From NCBI RefSeq assembly GCF_000227665.2, contig NZ_CP007030.1, forward strand, positions 930,001 through 994,000: 64,000 bases of DNA. Reading direction: 5' to 3'. This document shows positions 3,977 through 42,454 of the stretch, one piece after another. The DNA comes from Thiomicrospira aerophila AL3 (GTDB taxonomy: Bacteria; Pseudomonadota; Gammaproteobacteria; Thiomicrospirales; Thiomicrospiraceae). The stretch's first letter is position 1, and each line of letters opens with the position of its first letter. Below the pieces are notes generated by a model that was given only the letters and a program-made list of their open reading frames with translations, was not told where the DNA came from and did not search any database. Position numbers and translations under genes: made by a program.

Positions 3977-5932
3977 ATGTCGAACAATATCGAGTCAATT
4001 TTGACAGAAACACGGGTCTTTGAACCCTCAGCAGCCATCAAACAACAAGCCGGTATTAATGCCGACAAGCTGGCCGCCATGTATGCCAAAGCCGAGCAGG
4101 ATCATGTTGGTTTTTGGGCTGATTTAGCCAAAGAGAAATTGAGCTGGCATAAACCATTCACCCAAGCATTAGATGATTCAAAAGCGCCGTTATACCGTTG
4201 GTTTAGCGATGGTGAATTGAATGTTTCCTATAACTGTATTGATCGCCACTTGGACACTAAAAGTGATAAGTTAGCGATTATTTTCGAAGGTGATAAAGGC
4301 GATGTCCATCACTATACCTATCAAGAATTGCACGACGAAGTCTGCCGATTTGCGAATACCTTAAAAACCCAGGGCATCAAGCAAGGCGATCGCGTCATTA
4401 TTTATATGCCGATGATTCCGCAGGCGGTCATTGCGATGCAAGCCTGTGCACGTGTTGGGGCCATTCATTCGGTGGTGTTTGGCGGCTTTTCCGCCGAAGC
4501 CTTAAAAGACCGCGTTGAAAATGCGGCTGCGAAAATGATCATTACCACGGACGGCGGTTTGCGTGGTGGTAAAGCGATTCCACTAAAAGGTGCGGTCGAT
4601 CAAGCCTTAGCAAAAGGCTGCGATTCGGTAAAAAAAGTAATTGTGTATCAGCGCACCAAACAAGATGTGCCGATGCAAGCAGGGCGCGATATTTGGTGGC
4701 ATGAAGCTGAAGCCGGCATGAGTAATTATCATGATCCGGTGATGTTGCCCGCTGACCATCCGTTGTTCTTACTTTACACCTCCGGTTCAACCGGGACGCC
4801 AAAAGGGGTACAGCACGGTAGCGGGGGCTATTTGTTAAATGCGATGCTCACCAATGAGTGGATGTTTGATTTAAATGACCAAGATGTGTTCTGGTGTACC
4901 GCTGATGTTGGCTGGATTACCGGCCATTCTTACGTCGCTTATGGCCCGTTGGCGATGGGTGCGACCATTGTGATGTTTGAAGGTGTGCCGACCTATCCAG
5001 ACGCGGGACGTTTTTGGCAGGTTTGTCAGGATCATGGCGTCACCGTCTTTTATACCGCACCGACTGCAATTCGTGCCTTGATGAAGTTTGGCAAAGATAT
5101 TCCGGCGCAATATGATCTGTCTAAGTTACGTATTTTAGGTACAGTGGGCGAGCCGATTAATCCAGAGGCTTGGATGTGGTATCACGAGGTGATTGGTCGG
5201 GGTGAATGTCCGATTATTGATACCTGGTGGCAAACCGAAACCGGTGCGCATATGATTGCACCTTTCCCAGGCGTGACCCCACTTAAACCGGGTTCTTGTA
5301 CGCGCCCATTACCGGGCATCGATGCGATTGTAGTCGATGAAGAAGGCAATGAGATTGGTAATAACTCAGGCGGCTATTTAGTCGTACGCAAACCTTGGCC
5401 ATCGATGCTGCAAACCGTTTGGGGAGATGACCAGCGTTATATCGATACCTACTATGCCAAGTTTAATAACAAATATTATGTGGTGGGCGATAGTGCGCAC
5501 AAGGATGCCGATGGGTATATTTGGATTCTTGGCCGTATTGATGATGTATTAAATGTGTCAGGTCATCGTTTAGGCACGATGGAAATTGAATCAGCCCTGG
5601 TGGCACACCCCAAAGTGGCTGAAGCGGCGGTAGTGGGTAAACCTCATGATGTGAAAGGGGAGTCTGTATTTGCATTTGTGGTGCTTAATACTGACTTGCC
5701 AGCCGGTGCTGAGCGCGATGCAATGGTTAACGAGTTGCGTAATTGGGTGGCGCAAGAAATTGGCCCGATAGCCAAACCGGATGATATTCGTTTTGGGACC
5801 AATTTGCCTAAAACCCGTTCTGGCAAAATCATGCGTCGTTTATTGCGTACCATTGCTAAGGGTGAAGAAATTACCCAGGATACTTCAACACTTGAGGATC
5901 CATCGATTTTAAAACAGTTACAGCAGGCTTAG
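3977..5932 (+). CDS. acs: Acetyl-CoA synthetase (AMP-forming)
   Basis: Activates acetate to acetyl-CoA through acetyl-AMP. The 651 aa length is standard. The adenylate-forming P-loop [11 protein letters not shown] is near residue 264, the WWQTETG motif near 417, and the C-terminal [14 protein letters not shown] contains K617, the lysine that is reversibly acetylated in this family. A strong ribosome site (GGAGGAAAG) precedes the ATG. The genes downstream (DUF485-type protein, ActP, DUF294 regulator, exonuclease) form the acetate uptake and control neighbourhood common in gammaproteobacteria. In an autotroph it probably serves acetate assimilation or overflow recycling (inference). Confidence 0.97.
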
Positions 5933-37211: not shown

Positions 37212-38333
37212 TTATACCTTGCTTTTTACAAACTTGACTAGATTCGTGCTCAATTCTCCAAGTTTTTCCAACTGTTGTTGCCAGTTTTTAGCCTGTTGTT
37301 GCCATGCTGACCAGTGTTGAATCAGCATCAACCAGGCCTGCTGATCCAATTTTTGCCGGTTCCATGCTTGTTGCCAGTGGCTGATGGTATGGGCTAGCTC
37401 ATGCGGAATCCCTGCTTGATAAGCATTATTAAATGCCTGGAGCTTATCCCAGTGTGCGCCATCATCGGTTGGATAAATATGCCAAATAAAGGGTTTGGCA
37501 GCCCATTGTGCGCGCACAAAGGATTCTTCACCGCGCACAAAATTGAGGTCGGCTTGCCATAAAAGATGGTCATAATCGGCTTGTGACATAAAAGGTAAGC
37601 GGTAAAGGCTAAGTTGCCCTTGCTGCCAGCAGGCCTGCTTAGCAAGGCTGAGTTGAATAGCGGCGCTGAGTCCACCCAGGGTACGGCCTTCGGGAATAAG
37701 TAAACTGACCGATTGATACCCTACAGGTAAAGGTATTTCTTTTTCAATTAATAGATTAACTAAATCTTGTAGTGCTTTGTTTTCATAAGAAAAAACTGAT
37801 ATTTTAAAGTTATTGTCGGCACGTTTTAATCTGTCAGTGTTTTGAGCAAGCCGTTGCGCATAATCGGCTTCACGCATTAAGCCGCCGGTTCCGGGTAACA
37901 TGCCAGGAAAGAAAAAAGTTTTATCCAGACCGCAGGCCTGCTTAGAGGGGCGTAAGTGAAAATCGACGGCCCAGGGTTCTGCCGTCAGGTACTCTAAATT
38001 GATCCAAATCGGGCGCTGGGTTGCGGGTAACGCCCGCATGGCATCGAGATAGGGACTTGGTAACTCGCAACCAAAGGTTTCAATCACCACCTCGGCGGGT
38101 TGCGTTTGCTCAAAATCCTTTTGCCAGTGCCTGACTTCAATACCTTGACAGTGTTGTTGCGACACATCGGGCTGATAAAGTGGCTCCATGGCAGCAAGTG
38201 CTTGAGGTTGGTCGAGCCACAAGCGCACCTGTTGCTGGTGGTCATGGTGCAACAGTTTGGCAAGACGCCAGCTGACGCCAATATCGCCATAATTATCGAT
38301 GACGCGACAAAATATATCCCAGTATTTATGCAT
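37212..38333 (-). CDS. earP: EF-P arginine 32 rhamnosyltransferase
   Basis: 373 aa, former DUF2331. The N-terminus WDIFCRVIDNYGDIGVSWRLAK contains the catalytic aspartate region, WINLEYLTAEPW and KTFFFPGMLPGTGG are family motifs, and SFVRAQWAAKPFIWHIYP near the C-terminus binds the nucleotide sugar. It transfers rhamnose from dTDP-L-rhamnose to EF-P Arg32. It is 42 bp upstream of efp on the same strand. Three CAGGCCTGCT motifs (37333, 37630, 37933) are in the gene, read on its coding strand as AGCAGGCCTG and encoding QAW or QAC. Confidence 0.95.
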   Translation of the reverse strand: MHKYWDIFCRVIDNYGDIGVSWRLAKLLHHDHQQQVRLWLDQPQALAAMEPLYQPDVSQQHCQGIEVRHWQKDFEQTQPAEVVIETFGCELPSPYLDAMRALPATQRPIWINLEYLTAEPWAVDFHLRPSKQACGLDKTFFFPGMLPGTGGLMREADYAQRLAQNTDRLKRADNNFKISVFSYENKALQDLVNLLIEKEIPLPVGYQSVSLLIPEGRTLGGLSAAIQLSLAKQACWQQGQLSLYRLPFMSQADYDHLLWQADLNFVRGEESFVRAQWAAKPFIWHIYPTDDGAHWDKLQAFNNAYQAGIPHELAHTISHWQQAWNRQKLDQQAWLMLIQHWSAWQQQAKNWQQQLEKLGELSTNLVKFVKSKV

Positions 38334-38530
38334 GATTGGTTTGGGTAGCTACTAATAATAAATTGCTTGTTATTGTAACGATTTTTACAGTGCATGCTGC
38401 TACTGGCTTTATTAAGTTAATTTTGCGCAAGCGGCATTAATCTAATGGGTCTTTATTTGAAAAGTGTTACAATGTCATAAAGTTAAGCGTAACGTAATTC
38501 AAAAAAGGCTATTAGAAAATAGGAGGCAGG

Positions 38531-39874
38531 ATGGCGGTGTTTGCATTGGTGGATGCTAATAGTTTTTATGCGTCCTGTGAAATTTCATTTCGGCCAGACC
38601 TCGCAAAGCGTCCAGTGGTGGTGCTATCGAATAATGATGGCTGTATTGTCGCAGCCAATCATATTGCGAAGGACTTGGTTAAGCACCATGCCCGTGATTA
38701 TGGGCAAGGAGGCTATGCCGCGGCCAAGCCGACCAGCATGATGTTTCAACCCTATTTTAAAGTCGCTGATGTATTAACCCGTTACAACACAGCCGTGTTT
38801 AGTTCTAATTATGAACTCTATGGCGATATGAGTGCGCGTATGCACCGTATGCTAGGTGAATATGCCGCGGGACAAGAAATCTATTCAATTGATGAATCCT
38901 TTTTAGATCTGTCGGGCATGACGGCGTGGAATTTAACTGATTATGCCCAACTGATGCGCAGCAAAATTAAACAGGGGTTAGGTTTACCGGTCGCAGTCGG
39001 CATAGGCGGATCCAAAACCCTGGCTAAACTGGCTAATCATTTGGCTAAAAAGCAGGTACAGTTTGACGGTGTGTTGGATTTGACTGCGCTGAGTCTTCCC
39101 ACTCAAACTGCGTTATTGCGTCAAGTACCCATAGAGGATGTCTGGGGCGTGGGCCGACGCATGGCGCCCAAGTTACAAGCCTTAAATATTCATACTGCCT
39201 ATGATTTACAGCAGGCCAACCCCAAGCAATTACGCCGTCACTTTTCGGTAGTAATGGAACGATTAATTGCTGAGCTAAACGGCGAAAGTTGCTTAAGCCT
39301 TGAAGCGGTGGCACCGGCCAAGCAACAGATTATTCGTTCGCGCTCATTTGGTCAGCCAATAGTAGCGTTTGACTGGTTAGCGCAAGCGGTGGCGAGTTAT
39401 ACCGCACGGGCCGCTGAAAAATTGCGCCAGCAAGGCTCGGTTTGCCAACATATTCATGTTCACCTGCGTACCAATCCTTATGATAGCAAACAGCCTTATT
39501 ATGCTAATTCGCATGGTATGGGATTGGTCTATCCCACCGATAATAGCCAATTGTTGATTAAACTGGCCAAGCGTTTACTCAAGCGCGTTTGGCAACCAGG
39601 TCTGGCCTATCACAAAGCAGCGGTAACCTTATCGGCTATTAGTGATAAAGGGCCATTACAGCTAGATGTATTTGCCCCAGAACCTAAATTCTCAGCTAAT
39701 CCAAAATCAGACGCACTGATGACGACCCTCGATGCCATTAATCAAAAAATGGGTCGTGGCAGTATTCAATTTGCCGCCGAAGGCTTGGCGGATAAGGCGC
39801 AGTGGGCGATGCGTCGCGCCCATTGTTCACCGCGTTATACCACGCGTATTGATGAAGTCTTGGTGGTGAGTTAA
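38531..39874 (+). CDS. umuC: DNA polymerase V catalytic subunit UmuC (Y family)
   Basis: 447 aa. FALVDANSFYASCE has the first catalytic aspartate, YSIDESFLDLSG the second Asp-Glu pair, and GLPVAVGIGGSKTLAKLANHLAK is the Y-family thumb motif. The helix-hairpin-helix VWGVGRRMAPKLQALNI and the UmuC-specific C-terminal domain follow. GGAGG precedes the ATG. There is no umuD before it; instead umuD comes third, after a nuclease fusion. No CTG-N10-CAG LexA box was seen in the 197 bp upstream, so SOS control may use another sequence or lie further away. Confidence 0.95.
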   Translation: MAVFALVDANSFYASCEISFRPDLAKRPVVVLSNNDGCIVAANHIAKDLVKHHARDYGQGGYAAAKPTSMMFQPYFKVADVLTRYNTAVFSSNYELYGDMSARMHRMLGEYAAGQEIYSIDESFLDLSGMTAWNLTDYAQLMRSKIKQGLGLPVAVGIGGSKTLAKLANHLAKKQVQFDGVLDLTALSLPTQTALLRQVPIEDVWGVGRRMAPKLQALNIHTAYDLQQANPKQLRRHFSVVMERLIAELNGESCLSLEAVAPAKQQIIRSRSFGQPIVAFDWLAQAVASYTARAAEKLRQQGSVCQHIHVHLRTNPYDSKQPYYANSHGMGLVYPTDNSQLLIKLAKRLLKRVWQPGLAYHKAAVTLSAISDKGPLQLDVFAPEPKFSANPKSDALMTTLDAINQKMGRGSIQFAAEGLADKAQWAMRRAHCSPRYTTRIDEVLVVS

Positions 39875-41347
39875 ATGACGCAAACCTGGACTTGGTGGGC
39901 AGCTAAACCGGCTACATTTACGCTCAATGATTGGGTGCTGGTTGATATAGAAACCACAGGCGGCAAACCGGGGCGTGATGAGATTATTGAAATTGCGGTG
40001 CAGCGCTTTCACGAAGGCGAATGGGTGCAATCTTGGCAACAACTTATTCGCCCCCAGCGCACGATTCCGCCTTGGATTACCCGTTTAACCGGGATTACTA
40101 ATGCCATGGTCGCGGATGCGCCGCGTTTTGATGAGATCGCTGATGAATTAGCGGCCTTGTTAGCCGATAAAGTGTTTGTTGCACACAATGCCCGTTTTGA
40201 CTATGGCTTTATTAAACATCAGTTTAAGCAACTCGGCTTAAACTGGCGAGCGACGACGCTGTGTACCGTTAAATTATCTAAACAGCTCTTCCCGCAGTAC
40301 CCGCGGCATGGCCTAGATCATTTGGTGGCGCGCTATGACTTACCCCAAGTAGATCGTCACCGAGCCATGGGCGATGTGGAGCTGATGGTCGCATTTTTGG
40401 CAAAACTGAGTGATGAGGTTGCACCAGAACAGCTATGGTCTATGCTGGCGCAACTGCTAGTACAGCCAAGTCTGCCAGCGCATTTAGATCCACATGCGTT
40501 GGATGAGTGTGAAGATGTGCCCGGCGTCTATCGTTTTTATGGCGAATGCGGACGGCTGCTCTATGTTGGGAAATCGGTACAGCTACGCACGCGCATTTTA
40601 AGCCATTTTAATCCAGATCAACGCACGGCTAAAAATCTTAAAATGCTTAGCGAAATTCACCATCTTGATTGGACAGAGTGTGAAGGGGATTTAACCGCGC
40701 AACTGCTTGAATCTAATAAAATCAAAGAGTTATCGCCTAAATATAATGTTAAGTTACGCAAACAAACACGCTTGTGGCGTTGGGTAAAGTCGCTGGATAA
40801 GCAGGGTTACGCACAGTTGAAGTTAGTGGCCAGTGATGCGTTAACCGTTGAGGATTTACGGGATAGCTATGGTTTGTTTCGCTCACAAAAACAAGCTGAA
40901 GAAGCCATGCGTAATAAGGTTAAGGAAGCAAATTTGTGTCAGCGCTTAACCGGTTTAGAAAGAAAATCGCACGGCGCTTGCTTTGCCTATCAACTCAAAC
41001 AATGCCGTGGTCCTTGCGTGCAAGAAGAGTTACCGAACCAGTACAATTTGCGCCAAGATATTGCACTGCTGAGTTGGCAGCAGCAGGCCTGGCCGTGGTC
41101 AGGACCGGTGTTAGTGCGTGAAACAGCCGAAAGCGAGCGTGGGTTAGTGATTTATCAATGGCAAGTGGTGGCGGAAGTGGATGATGAGAGTGAATTAGCG
41201 GCGTGTTTAGCTAGCAGGCCTGCTAAGGGCCAAGCTCTAGACTTGGATAGCTATCGTATTTTATGTAAATTTTTACTTAAACCGCCTAAAGGCATGATAA
41301 TTCAGCCTTTAAAGTGGCTGGCAGCGCGAGAGGTGTGTGATGAATAA
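39875..41347 (+). CDS. DEDDh exonuclease/GIY-YIG nuclease fusion (Cho-like)
   Basis: 490 aa. Residues about 18-185 are a DnaQ-type exonuclease (VLVDIETTGGKPGRDEIIEI; VFVAHNARFDYGFI; HRAMGDVELM), a full DEDDh set. Residues about 210-290 are a GIY-YIG domain (VPGVYRFYGECGRLLYVGKS; LRTRILSHF; LLESNKIKEL) as in the UvrC N-terminus and Cho. The rest resembles the Cho/UvrC tail with a Cys cluster (ACFAYQLKQCRGPC). Such fusions occur in several bacteria, including mycobacteria; here it starts on the umuC stop (0 bp gap) and overlaps umuD, pointing to a job with translesion synthesis. Confidence 0.9.
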   Translation: MTQTWTWWAAKPATFTLNDWVLVDIETTGGKPGRDEIIEIAVQRFHEGEWVQSWQQLIRPQRTIPPWITRLTGITNAMVADAPRFDEIADELAALLADKVFVAHNARFDYGFIKHQFKQLGLNWRATTLCTVKLSKQLFPQYPRHGLDHLVARYDLPQVDRHRAMGDVELMVAFLAKLSDEVAPEQLWSMLAQLLVQPSLPAHLDPHALDECEDVPGVYRFYGECGRLLYVGKSVQLRTRILSHFNPDQRTAKNLKMLSEIHHLDWTECEGDLTAQLLESNKIKELSPKYNVKLRKQTRLWRWVKSLDKQGYAQLKLVASDALTVEDLRDSYGLFRSQKQAEEAMRNKVKEANLCQRLTGLERKSHGACFAYQLKQCRGPCVQEELPNQYNLRQDIALLSWQQQAWPWSGPVLVRETAESERGLVIYQWQVVAEVDDESELAACLASRPAKGQALDLDSYRILCKFLLKPPKGMIIQPLKWLAAREVCDE

Positions 41348-41930
41348 GTCAGTGAAATCAGGACATGGTGGTAAGCGAGCAGGGGCTGGGCGCAAAGCAG
41401 GCAGTGGGCCTTTTGGTGAAGCGACCAAAGTAATGCGTGTGCCCGCATCCAAAGTCACTTTAATTAAAAGTTGGTTACATAGTTTGTATGACCCTTCTGC
41501 AGCATCGATTTCTGACTGGCAGCTTGTTGACCCGTCCAGTAAGATTGCACTGCCGGTATTTAGTCATAAAGTGATTGCCGGTTTTCCATCACCTGCTGAT
41601 GATAACCTGGAAGAGACGATTGATCTGAATGAAGCTTTTGTGCCCAGTGTCAATACCAGTTTTGTGGTGCGAGTGCAGGGCGATTCGATGCTAGAAGCAG
41701 GGATTTTACCGGGTGACCAATTGGTTATAGATCGCAGTATTGAGCCGGTATCAGGGAAAATTGTTGTGGCGTCGGTAGATGGCGATTTAACGCTGAAACG
41801 CCTTATTAAACAAAAAGATAAGCTATGGCTTTATCCAGAGAATAGCCAATACCAACCTATTGCAGTACATGAAAACACAGAATTGGTTATTTGGGGTGTG
41901 GTGGTGTCTGTGCTGCGGAAGCTTGATTGA
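41340..41930 (+). CDS. umuD: UmuD-like S24 self-cleaving protein with extended N-terminus
   Basis: 196 aa from the ATG at 41340 (GAGAGG upstream); E. coli UmuD has 139. The core is intact: predicted cleavage at A80-G81 (VIAGFPSP), nucleophile S116 (GDSM) and K153 (LTLKRL). The spacings, 36 and 37 residues, equal those of E. coli (C24/S60/K97). The extra 57 or so residues begin with a basic GGKRAGAGRKAG stretch, possibly DNA-binding. It overlaps the nuclease gene by 8 bp. RecA-stimulated cleavage would activate UmuC. Confidence 0.92.
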   Translation: MNKSVKSGHGGKRAGAGRKAGSGPFGEATKVMRVPASKVTLIKSWLHSLYDPSAASISDWQLVDPSSKIALPVFSHKVIAGFPSPADDNLEETIDLNEAFVPSVNTSFVVRVQGDSMLEAGILPGDQLVIDRSIEPVSGKIVVASVDGDLTLKRLIKQKDKLWLYPENSQYQPIAVHENTELVIWGVVVSVLRKLD

Positions 41931-42177
41931 CCTGGTGAGCGAAAACTAATACCTGTGCCACAGCTTGAAATAAAGGTTTTGGAATGCGTGCTTCTAACGG
42001 CAGTTGTGCAAGCACCGCAGTGAGTTCGGGGTCTTGGTAAAGCGGGATGTTATGTTCTTGAGCGCGTTTGATGATGGTTTCGGCTACAGAGCCTTTGCCT
42101 GCAGCGGTCACTCGTGGCAAATCCCCTTGATCATATTGCAGTGCAACGGCTTGAGCAAGGGGTTTGGATTGGGACAT
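41887..42177 (-). CDS. FlhB C-terminal-domain-like protein
   Basis: 96 aa. LAQAVALQYDQGDLPRVTAAGKGSVAETIIKRAQEHNIPLYQDPELTAVLAQL is the cytoplasmic domain of the FlhB/YscU export switch without the membrane part and without the NPTH cleavage site. Such short FlhB-like proteins accompany flagellar or chemotaxis genes. It lies 4 bp after the STAS gene, and its 3' end overlaps umuD by 44 bp in the opposite direction. Confidence 0.82.
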   Translation of the reverse strand: MSQSKPLAQAVALQYDQGDLPRVTAAGKGSVAETIIKRAQEHNIPLYQDPELTAVLAQLPLEARIPKPLFQAVAQVLVFAHQVNQASAAQTPPHPK

Positions 42178-42181
42178 GAGT

Positions 42182-42454
42182 TTAAAGTTGTAAGGCGTCA
42201 GTTAAACCAAGATTTTCAGCACTTTTGATTAAAGGCTCTGCAGGGTCTTGCCAGCTAAAATTAAACCCTTCACGTTGTATTTTCGTGATAAGTGCGAGTA
42301 ATAACTGCAATCCAGCCGTATCAATATTAATAATATTATCTGCGACCAATGTAATATTAGGTTCGCAGTCTACAAGCAAGTCCGTTATGCGAGCATATTC
42401 CGATTGTACAGACTGGATGGTGAGTGTTTCGGGTAAACTTATCACACTACTCAT
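42182..42454 (-). CDS. STAS-domain protein
   Basis: 90 aa from the ATG at 42454, with AAGGA upstream; an upstream TTG would add two residues. NIINIDTAGLQLLLALITKIQREG is the STAS signature, with the Asp-Thr-Ala-Gly loop holding the potential phospho-acceptor threonine. It is 20 bp after a CheY-type gene. CheY-STAS pairs usually begin a chemotaxis operon with cheA; none is present here. Confidence 0.85.
   Translation of the reverse strand: MSSVISLPETLTIQSVQSEYARITDLLVDCEPNITLVADNIINIDTAGLQLLLALITKIQREGFNFSWQDPAEPLIKSAENLGLTDALQL

Follow-up and report, generated by a model that had tools for sequence, protein, structure and literature searches.

A three-gene operon links DNA polymerase V genes to a nuclease fusion

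We analysed a stretch of 64,000 nucleotides from Thiomicrospira aerophila AL3 (NZ_CP007030.1, positions 930,001 to 994,000), hereafter the window, which is part of a 2.16-Mb genome on a single contig, and focused on three adjoining genes of its + strand. The first, umuC (38531-39874), encodes the Y-family catalytic subunit of DNA polymerase V (Pol V; 447 amino acids, aa). It is followed by a gene for a 490-aa fusion of a DEDDh exonuclease with a Cho-like GIY-YIG nuclease (39875-41347), and by umuD (41340-41930), whose 196-aa product has a UmuDAb-like N-terminal region before its S24 domain. All three were identified from the list of open reading frames (ORFs) with Pfam and NCBIfam models, together with alignment for the fusion and UmuD and a predicted structure for the fusion. 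The umuC stop codon TAA touches the ATG of the fusion gene (TAAATG), leaving a gap of 0 bp, and the umuD ATG at 41340 overlaps the 3' end of the fusion gene by 8 bp (ATGAATAA). An initial annotation, made from the sequence alone, had given the same identities, order and coordinates and had described the genes as abutting or overlapping in one direction, all of which was borne out; its remark that the classical operon is reversed here is right when umuDC is taken for comparison. UmuC contains IMS, IMS_C and DUF4113 domains and belongs to the UmuC subfamily by its score of 448 bits against model NF002955 (cut-off 431). Among the loci of the order Thiomicrospirales where both genes were seen, umuD and umuC were divergent in 16 of 20 and codirectional, with umuC first, in the other four.

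The middle gene encodes a Cho-like nuclease with a DEDDh exonuclease domain

The middle gene had been read as joining a proofreading-type exonuclease to a Cho/UvrC-type nuclease, and domain searches agreed: exonuclease PF00929 (residues 21-172) and GIY-YIG PF01541 (217-291) both matched above cut-off, and a Cho-like stretch spanned residues 201-469. This stretch scored 172 bits against NF007833, under the cut-off of 367, which places the protein outside the excinuclease Cho equivalog. Across 19 aligned relatives, D24, E26, D109, H162 and D167 were invariant, as were Y219, Y230, G232, R240, E279 and N291, and we take these two sets to be the DEDDh and GIY-YIG catalytic residues, respectively. 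Cysteines 355, 369, 377 and 381 were likewise invariant; in UvrC, such cysteines bind an iron-sulfur cluster. With its DEDDh and GIY-YIG domains and a Cho-type C-terminal part bearing the four cysteines, the protein is a member of the 'Cho-like+Exo' architecture, and the PRK07883 models matched it at up to 249 bits, below their own cut-offs.

The fusion architecture itself is already known. Excerpts from PMC1564403 list 'Cho-like+Exo' and report that digestion by the exonuclease, beginning at the GIY-YIG incision and passing through the lesion, had been proposed before, and a Cho-like/exonuclease fusion in beta-proteobacteria is noted in parts of PMC518961 and PMC1839093. The predicted structure was confident (mean predicted local distance difference test score, pLDDT, of 87), and in Foldseek searches its exonuclease half matched the exonuclease domains of DinG, DnaQ, PolC and ExoX. 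The 50 PDB matches listed were, judged by their titles, either exonuclease-type proteins or polymerases that contain an exonuclease-type domain, and were uninformative on the GIY-YIG half. The genome additionally encodes 627-aa UvrC-like and 682-aa UvrB-like proteins with a UVR motif.

UmuD resembles the UmuDAb repressor, and no LexA DNA-binding domain was found in the genus

UmuD matched both S24 (PF00717) and the UmuD model NF007621 above cut-off, making it a member of the UmuD family, and about 70 residues precede its S24 domain. Within this N-terminal region, G15, G17-R18-K19, G21, G23, E27, T29, V31, R33, P35, S37 and W45-L46 were invariant among 22 family members. The same alignment showed invariant A80-G81, S116 and K153, presumably the cleavage site (Ala80-Gly81) and the Ser/Lys pair (Ser116/Lys153). 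Identity to UmuDAb of Acinetobacter reached 54% over 46 N-terminal residues and 43% over the whole protein, and on this homology the N-terminal region, which goes beyond classical UmuD, is of the UmuDAb type. UmuDAb is described as a LexA-like repressor in Acinetobacter, a genus without LexA (excerpts from PMC11332147 and PMC4807011), and part of PMC8565304 places UmuDAb-type control in the Moraxellaceae.

Consistent with such a role, none of the nine Thiomicrospira genomes matched the LexA DNA-binding domain PF01726, nor did 58 of the 62 genomes of the order, using a search that detects PF01726 in E. coli. LexA control of the operon was rejected on this genus-wide result and on the absence of any exact CTGT-N8-ACAG site from the window. 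A PF00717 search of the window's genome alone returned two S24 proteins. The second is 153 aa long, lies outside the window (L073 1402-1863) and has no recognised DNA-binding domain. As this 153-aa protein is the only other S24 protein found in the genome, UmuD probably acts as both regulator and Pol V subunit. Our search of open-licence PMC papers for UmuDAb-type control outside Acinetobacter, and for Thiomicrospira with LexA, brought up no report that we recognised for this group. On a Legionella sainthelensi plasmid (L191 1736-1749), GTAACATCAATCAA closely precedes a umuD gene whose product has a short UmuDAb-like N-terminal region, a hint that UmuDAb-like control may be wider still.

A conserved operator candidate precedes umuC

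A box search revealed an operator candidate whose first arm, TTGAAAAGTGTTACA (38457-38471, + strand, with the TTGA-N5-GTTAC unit at 38457-38470), lies 74 bp upstream of the umuC start and whose second, inverted arm occupies 38489-38502 on the - strand (GTAACGTAATTCAA on the + strand). Of 30 umuC loci of the order, 28 had the TTGA(N5)GTWAC box at a distance of 23-147 bp before the gene; these 30 were the best of 52 match rows, with one row from genome G060 left out. The box occurred once elsewhere in 128,334 bases. One of the two loci without a box has only 264 bp upstream (L063), and the other (L071) comes from an 83%-complete draft. The window contained four loose boxes versus 0.8 in shuffles, two of the four being the operator arms, and G060 has a perfect 15-bp inverted pair. 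We also noted ATTGTAACGATTTT at 38372-38385, which matches the operator core once more in inverted form and stands 74 bp ahead of the repeat of the first arm.

The UmuDAb operator has TTGA/TCAA arms, a GTnAC core and 4-bp spacing, as given in excerpts from PMC11332147 and PMC4807011, and we found it upstream of umuDAb in locus L190. The window candidate does not follow TTGA-N4-GTnAC-N4-TCAA but has a spacing of 5 and forms an inverted pair of arm-plus-core units; it thus appears to be a UmuDAb-like operator, not a UmuDAb operator. Throughout the genus, the strict box gave 35 matches versus 27 in a reversed control. Ten of the 35 were at umuC genes and the other 25 were at control level, and a wider regulon was rejected for this reason. 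Because strict boxes away from umuC do not exceed the control, the putative switch looks dedicated to Pol V. According to part of PMC8565304, the predicted SOS networks of Bacteroidetes include a GIY-YIG exonuclease, so that there is a precedent for placing a fusion of this kind under damage control.

A model for autoregulated mutagenesis

We tentatively propose, at somewhat less than an even chance, that the three genes form an autoregulated, damage-induced mutagenesis operon, in which UmuD would be both repressor and Pol V subunit and the captured fusion would have its excision activity induced together with Pol V. Without damage, long UmuD would repress the operon from the umuC promoter, bound to its inverted TTGA(N5)GTWAC boxes, as UmuDAb does in Acinetobacter. 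Upon damage, RecA filaments would prompt UmuD to cleave itself at Ala80-Gly81, taking off the DNA-binding part, so that the operon would open and UmuD' would become available for Pol V. The co-induced fusion would work with the Uvr proteins: its Cho-type domain would nick 3' of a UvrB-marked lesion, and its DEDDh domain would start at that nick and degrade the DNA 3'-5' across the lesion. The resulting gap, with its 3'-OH end as primer, would be filled by Pol V where ordinary polymerases cannot do so, for instance when the opposite strand is damaged as well, or where RecA is loaded.

The regulatory half of this model has good support in the sequence, and the biochemical half is inference. The gene set, the operon geometry, the conserved catalytic residues, the conserved operator, the N-terminal homology of UmuD to UmuDAb and the failure to find a LexA DNA-binding domain in the genus are all seen in the sequence itself; what we infer is that UmuD represses and is cleaved, that the fusion incises and resects, and that the gap passes to Pol V. 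The UmuDAb-type N-terminus with its matching operator goes beyond the initial annotation and is the most testable part.

Linkage of the fusion to Pol V genes within the order

Eighteen of the 62 genomes of the order matched the fusion at E <= 1e-20 (16 fusions and two proteins without the exonuclease part), and umuC was found in 49. The fusion gene adjoins umuC in five of the 16, all of them Thiomicrospira, a genus in which six of nine genomes carry the fusion; one further fusion (G037) sits on a 3.9-kb contig too short to judge its linkage. The order umuC-fusion-umuD, which the initial annotation proposed to look for in other genomes, occurs in the window's genome (G000) and in G060 and G053, and is therefore not unique to one strain. 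These three genomes represent three species with fusions that are 77-94% identical, the window and G060 proteins being the 94% pair. Two other genomes, G055 and G059, have fusion-umuC-umuD, and G056 and G058 have umuC-umuD without a fusion. G060 contains a second umuC (L185 4799-6142), 72% identical and with its own strict box upstream; no umuD or fusion gene was found in that 11-kb stretch.

The two arrangements differ in their surroundings, since umuC-fusion-umuD loci have earP as a neighbour and in fusion-umuC-umuD loci the fusion is preceded by a conserved gene of 150-175 aa, which is likewise found ahead of the fusions without linkage in G054, G049 and G033. In the fusion tree, the G000 clade stands apart from G054, G055 and G059, separated by a deep fork without resolution. 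Approximately unbiased (AU) tests, both run after the tree and gene orders had been seen, rejected a single group of the six genus fusions (p-AU 0.007) and a single group of the five linked fusions (p-AU 7e-5). Because the tree splits the linked fusions and the loci differ in their neighbours, these results suggest two separate linkage events of fusion and Pol V genes in the genus, to be taken with caution as the G000-clade fusion branch is long.

The small number of genomes, five of the 16 that bear the fusion in the order, would suit a chance neighbourhood without functional meaning. Yet the abutting and overlapping genes have been kept in three species despite the divergence of their fusions, and the association recurs in other contexts, namely the second genus arrangement and the viral contigs described below; we regard chance as extremely improbable.

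In the window, earP lies upstream of the operon, divergent and across a 197-bp gap, and a convergent ORF of 96 aa resembling the FlhB C-terminus lies 3' of umuD, the two 3' ends overlapping by 44 bp (41887-41930). Promoter-like and terminator-like sites in 38200-42300 were not above shuffles (5 versus 5.8 and 5 versus 5.7, respectively). Recent foreign import was rejected, as GC content and GC content at third codon positions (GC3) of umuC and the fusion gene were within the range of nine window genes; the GC3 of umuD (0.39) was slightly under that range.

Cho-type nucleases beside Pol V genes in viral, mobile and other bacterial DNA

On viral contigs, umuD-cho-umuC ran in one direction in five of 16 loci (L167, L170, L171, L174 and L175), three of the 16 (L179-L181) being weak matches, and the genes were closely packed in the first four of these five. 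The viral Cho proteins are of the plain Cho type and lack the exonuclease part; among the four scanned (L175 lay outside the scan), those of L167, L171 and L174 passed the Cho cut-off and that of L170 did not. A phage-type integrase gene is located upstream of the operon in L171, and a CTGT-N8-ACAG box was seen close to the likely umuD start in both L171 and L174. Phage records included no match for the L170 Cho and 32 matches for the fusion, none over more than 80% of its length. Plasmid records yielded 28 matches for the fusion, with umuC or umuD beside it in neither of two annotated regions inspected (a third region carries no annotation), and 3758 for the viral umuD-cho-umuC stretch, none over more than 80% of the query. 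We also noted three adjacent genes on a Legionella israelensis plasmid (L075 1987-4656), which encode a free-standing 3'-5' exonuclease, a small GIY-YIG nuclease and the full fusion.

Genome G372 (L159 7484-8983) carries umuD, an open cho gene without exonuclease and then a short 5' stretch of umuC homology, and a search for further umuD-cho-umuC loci near it found one in 36 genomes, namely G372 itself. A metagenome-assembled genome of the Methylophilaceae (L024) has the fusion divergent from umuD-umuC, and the fusion locus of a related genome (L025) has neither umuC nor umuD. Between the divergent umuD and fusion genes of L024 (about 4870-4915), we read by eye an inverted repeat, TTATTGTACG/CGTACAATAA, possibly a different operator. 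Although most such nucleases are found elsewhere, Cho-type nucleases have thus repeatedly come to lie within or next to Pol V operons, a hint that some operons combine the excision of damage with error-prone refilling.

The viral operons also bear on a possible direct role of the DEDDh domain for Pol V, in which it would proofread in trans or trim primers and the Cho domain would be secondary. The domain is PolC/epsilon-like in both sequence and fold, but the viral operons pair Pol V genes with a Cho that has no exonuclease, and no interaction motif was demonstrated. We consider this role very unlikely.

Points against the model, and possible regulatory hitch-hiking

Several findings weigh against the autoregulated operon with a Pol V-coupled nuclease. 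AlphaFold2 confidence for the UmuD N-terminus was low and no DNA-binding fold was predicted there, and the operator spacing departs from that of UmuDAb. Linkage of the fusion to umuC is rare in the order, and two wider samples showed none outside the genus: 27 of 369 genomes in a class sample matched, comprising 23 full-length fusions (two from Thiomicrospira) and four shorter matches, and umuC or umuD stood beside none of the 21 other full-length fusions within flanks of 5-7 kb per side, some cut by contig ends. Similarly, 43 of 398 genomes in a phylum sample matched, and neither gene was found within the 1.5-kb flanks of 27 further loci (the phylum-sample loci cover 30 of 45 match rows). Coupling of the fusion to Pol V genes is optional, because the fusion is unlinked in these other genomes. 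In G055 and G059 the box does not precede the fusion gene but occupies the short stretch that separates it from umuC, and only the G000-clade layout puts the fusion behind the umuC operator. Finally, mutagenesis induced by nucleotide excision repair (NER) in E. coli, described in excerpts from PMC5521853 as gap filling with a lesion in the opposite strand, requires uvrC and not cho, and according to part of PMC3820734 deletion of cho leaves umuC_Y11A-dependent mutagenesis essentially unchanged. We lowered our estimate for the coupled reading because NER-induced mutagenesis is independent of cho in the former source; the Cho-exonuclease may behave unlike Cho.

An alternative is regulatory hitch-hiking, in which the fusion, serving as a back-up nuclease for excision repair, arrived in the umuC operon and was kept since damage induction suits it, without a mechanistic link to Pol V. 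The unlinked class-sample fusions favour it, and embedding by itself alters the control of the fusion: among fusion and cho genes that do not lie behind umuC, all 42 lacked both the TTGA(N5)GTWAC box and exact CTGT-N8-ACAG in the 260 bp upstream of the aligned start, and five had a one-mismatch LexA-like site. This set omits the three embedded fusions by design and retains those of G055 and G059, as well as a few genes that encode Cho alone; general SOS control of the fusion was rejected on the same result. Moreover, E. coli cho is LexA-controlled though it lies outside umuDC (excerpts from PMC3820734), and is not epistatic in NER-induced mutagenesis (excerpts from PMC5521853). Against hitch-hiking, a like nuclease stands beside Pol V genes in two genus arrangements and on viral contigs, more than random landing suggests. 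We regard it as a serious possibility, if on balance a doubtful one.

The coupling of lesion incision, resection and translesion synthesis suggested in the initial annotation is supported in part. It is strengthened by the other linkage within the genus, apparently of separate origin, and by the viral umuD-cho-umuC loci, and weakened by the unlinked class-sample fusions, by the operator position in G055 and G059 and by the dispensability of E. coli Cho in the two Pol V-related assays. Its fullest form would be a self-contained 'excise-and-mutate' module, in which UmuD would serve as damage-response repressor and Pol V subunit, the Cho-exonuclease would open lesion-adjacent gaps for Pol V loading, and cellular and viral lineages would have paired nuclease and polymerase independently; we think this rather unlikely.

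Should the autoregulated operon prove correct, excision repair and induced mutagenesis would be joined in a single natural operon, and the link between them could be tested directly. UmuD-type repression, described in Acinetobacter (Moraxellaceae), would control Pol V in another group, whose genomes mostly have no detectable LexA DNA-binding domain, and repressor and polymerase subunit could be a single protein. Among open-licence PMC papers, we recognised no report of a Cho/GIY-YIG nuclease in a umuDC operon, including when approached via the mycobacterial fusion, and we did not find the operon, its UmuDAb-like control or the viral parallels in print.

Comparison with known systems

Compared with the classical umuDC operon, the window operon shares UmuC and UmuD proteins that match their family models above cut-off, but here umuC comes first, a nuclease gene intervenes, umuD comes last and there is no LexA box. 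The closest likeness to the central protein is offered by the 'Cho-like+Exo' fusions of Mycobacterium and beta-proteobacteria (the NCBIfam PRK07883 group), which, in the excerpts cited above, likewise have DEDDh followed by GIY-YIG with a Cho-like C-terminal part. The window fusion differs in falling below the PRK07883 cut-offs and in sitting inside a Pol V operon. E. coli Cho, a damage-inducible back-up for 3' incision (excerpts from PMC1564403, PMC3820734 and PMC518961), has the GIY-YIG and cysteine core in common with the window protein, which differs by its fusion to DEDDh and its score below the Cho cut-off.

On the regulatory side, UmuD and UmuDAb of Acinetobacter share a homologous N-terminal region with an S24 domain, and both genera are without canonical LexA, whereas the window UmuD is linked to umuC and is the sole UmuD found in its genome. 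The operators compare in the same manner: TTGA/TCAA arms and a GTnAC core are common to both, and the distance between arm and core is 5 bp in the window versus 4 bp in UmuDAb.

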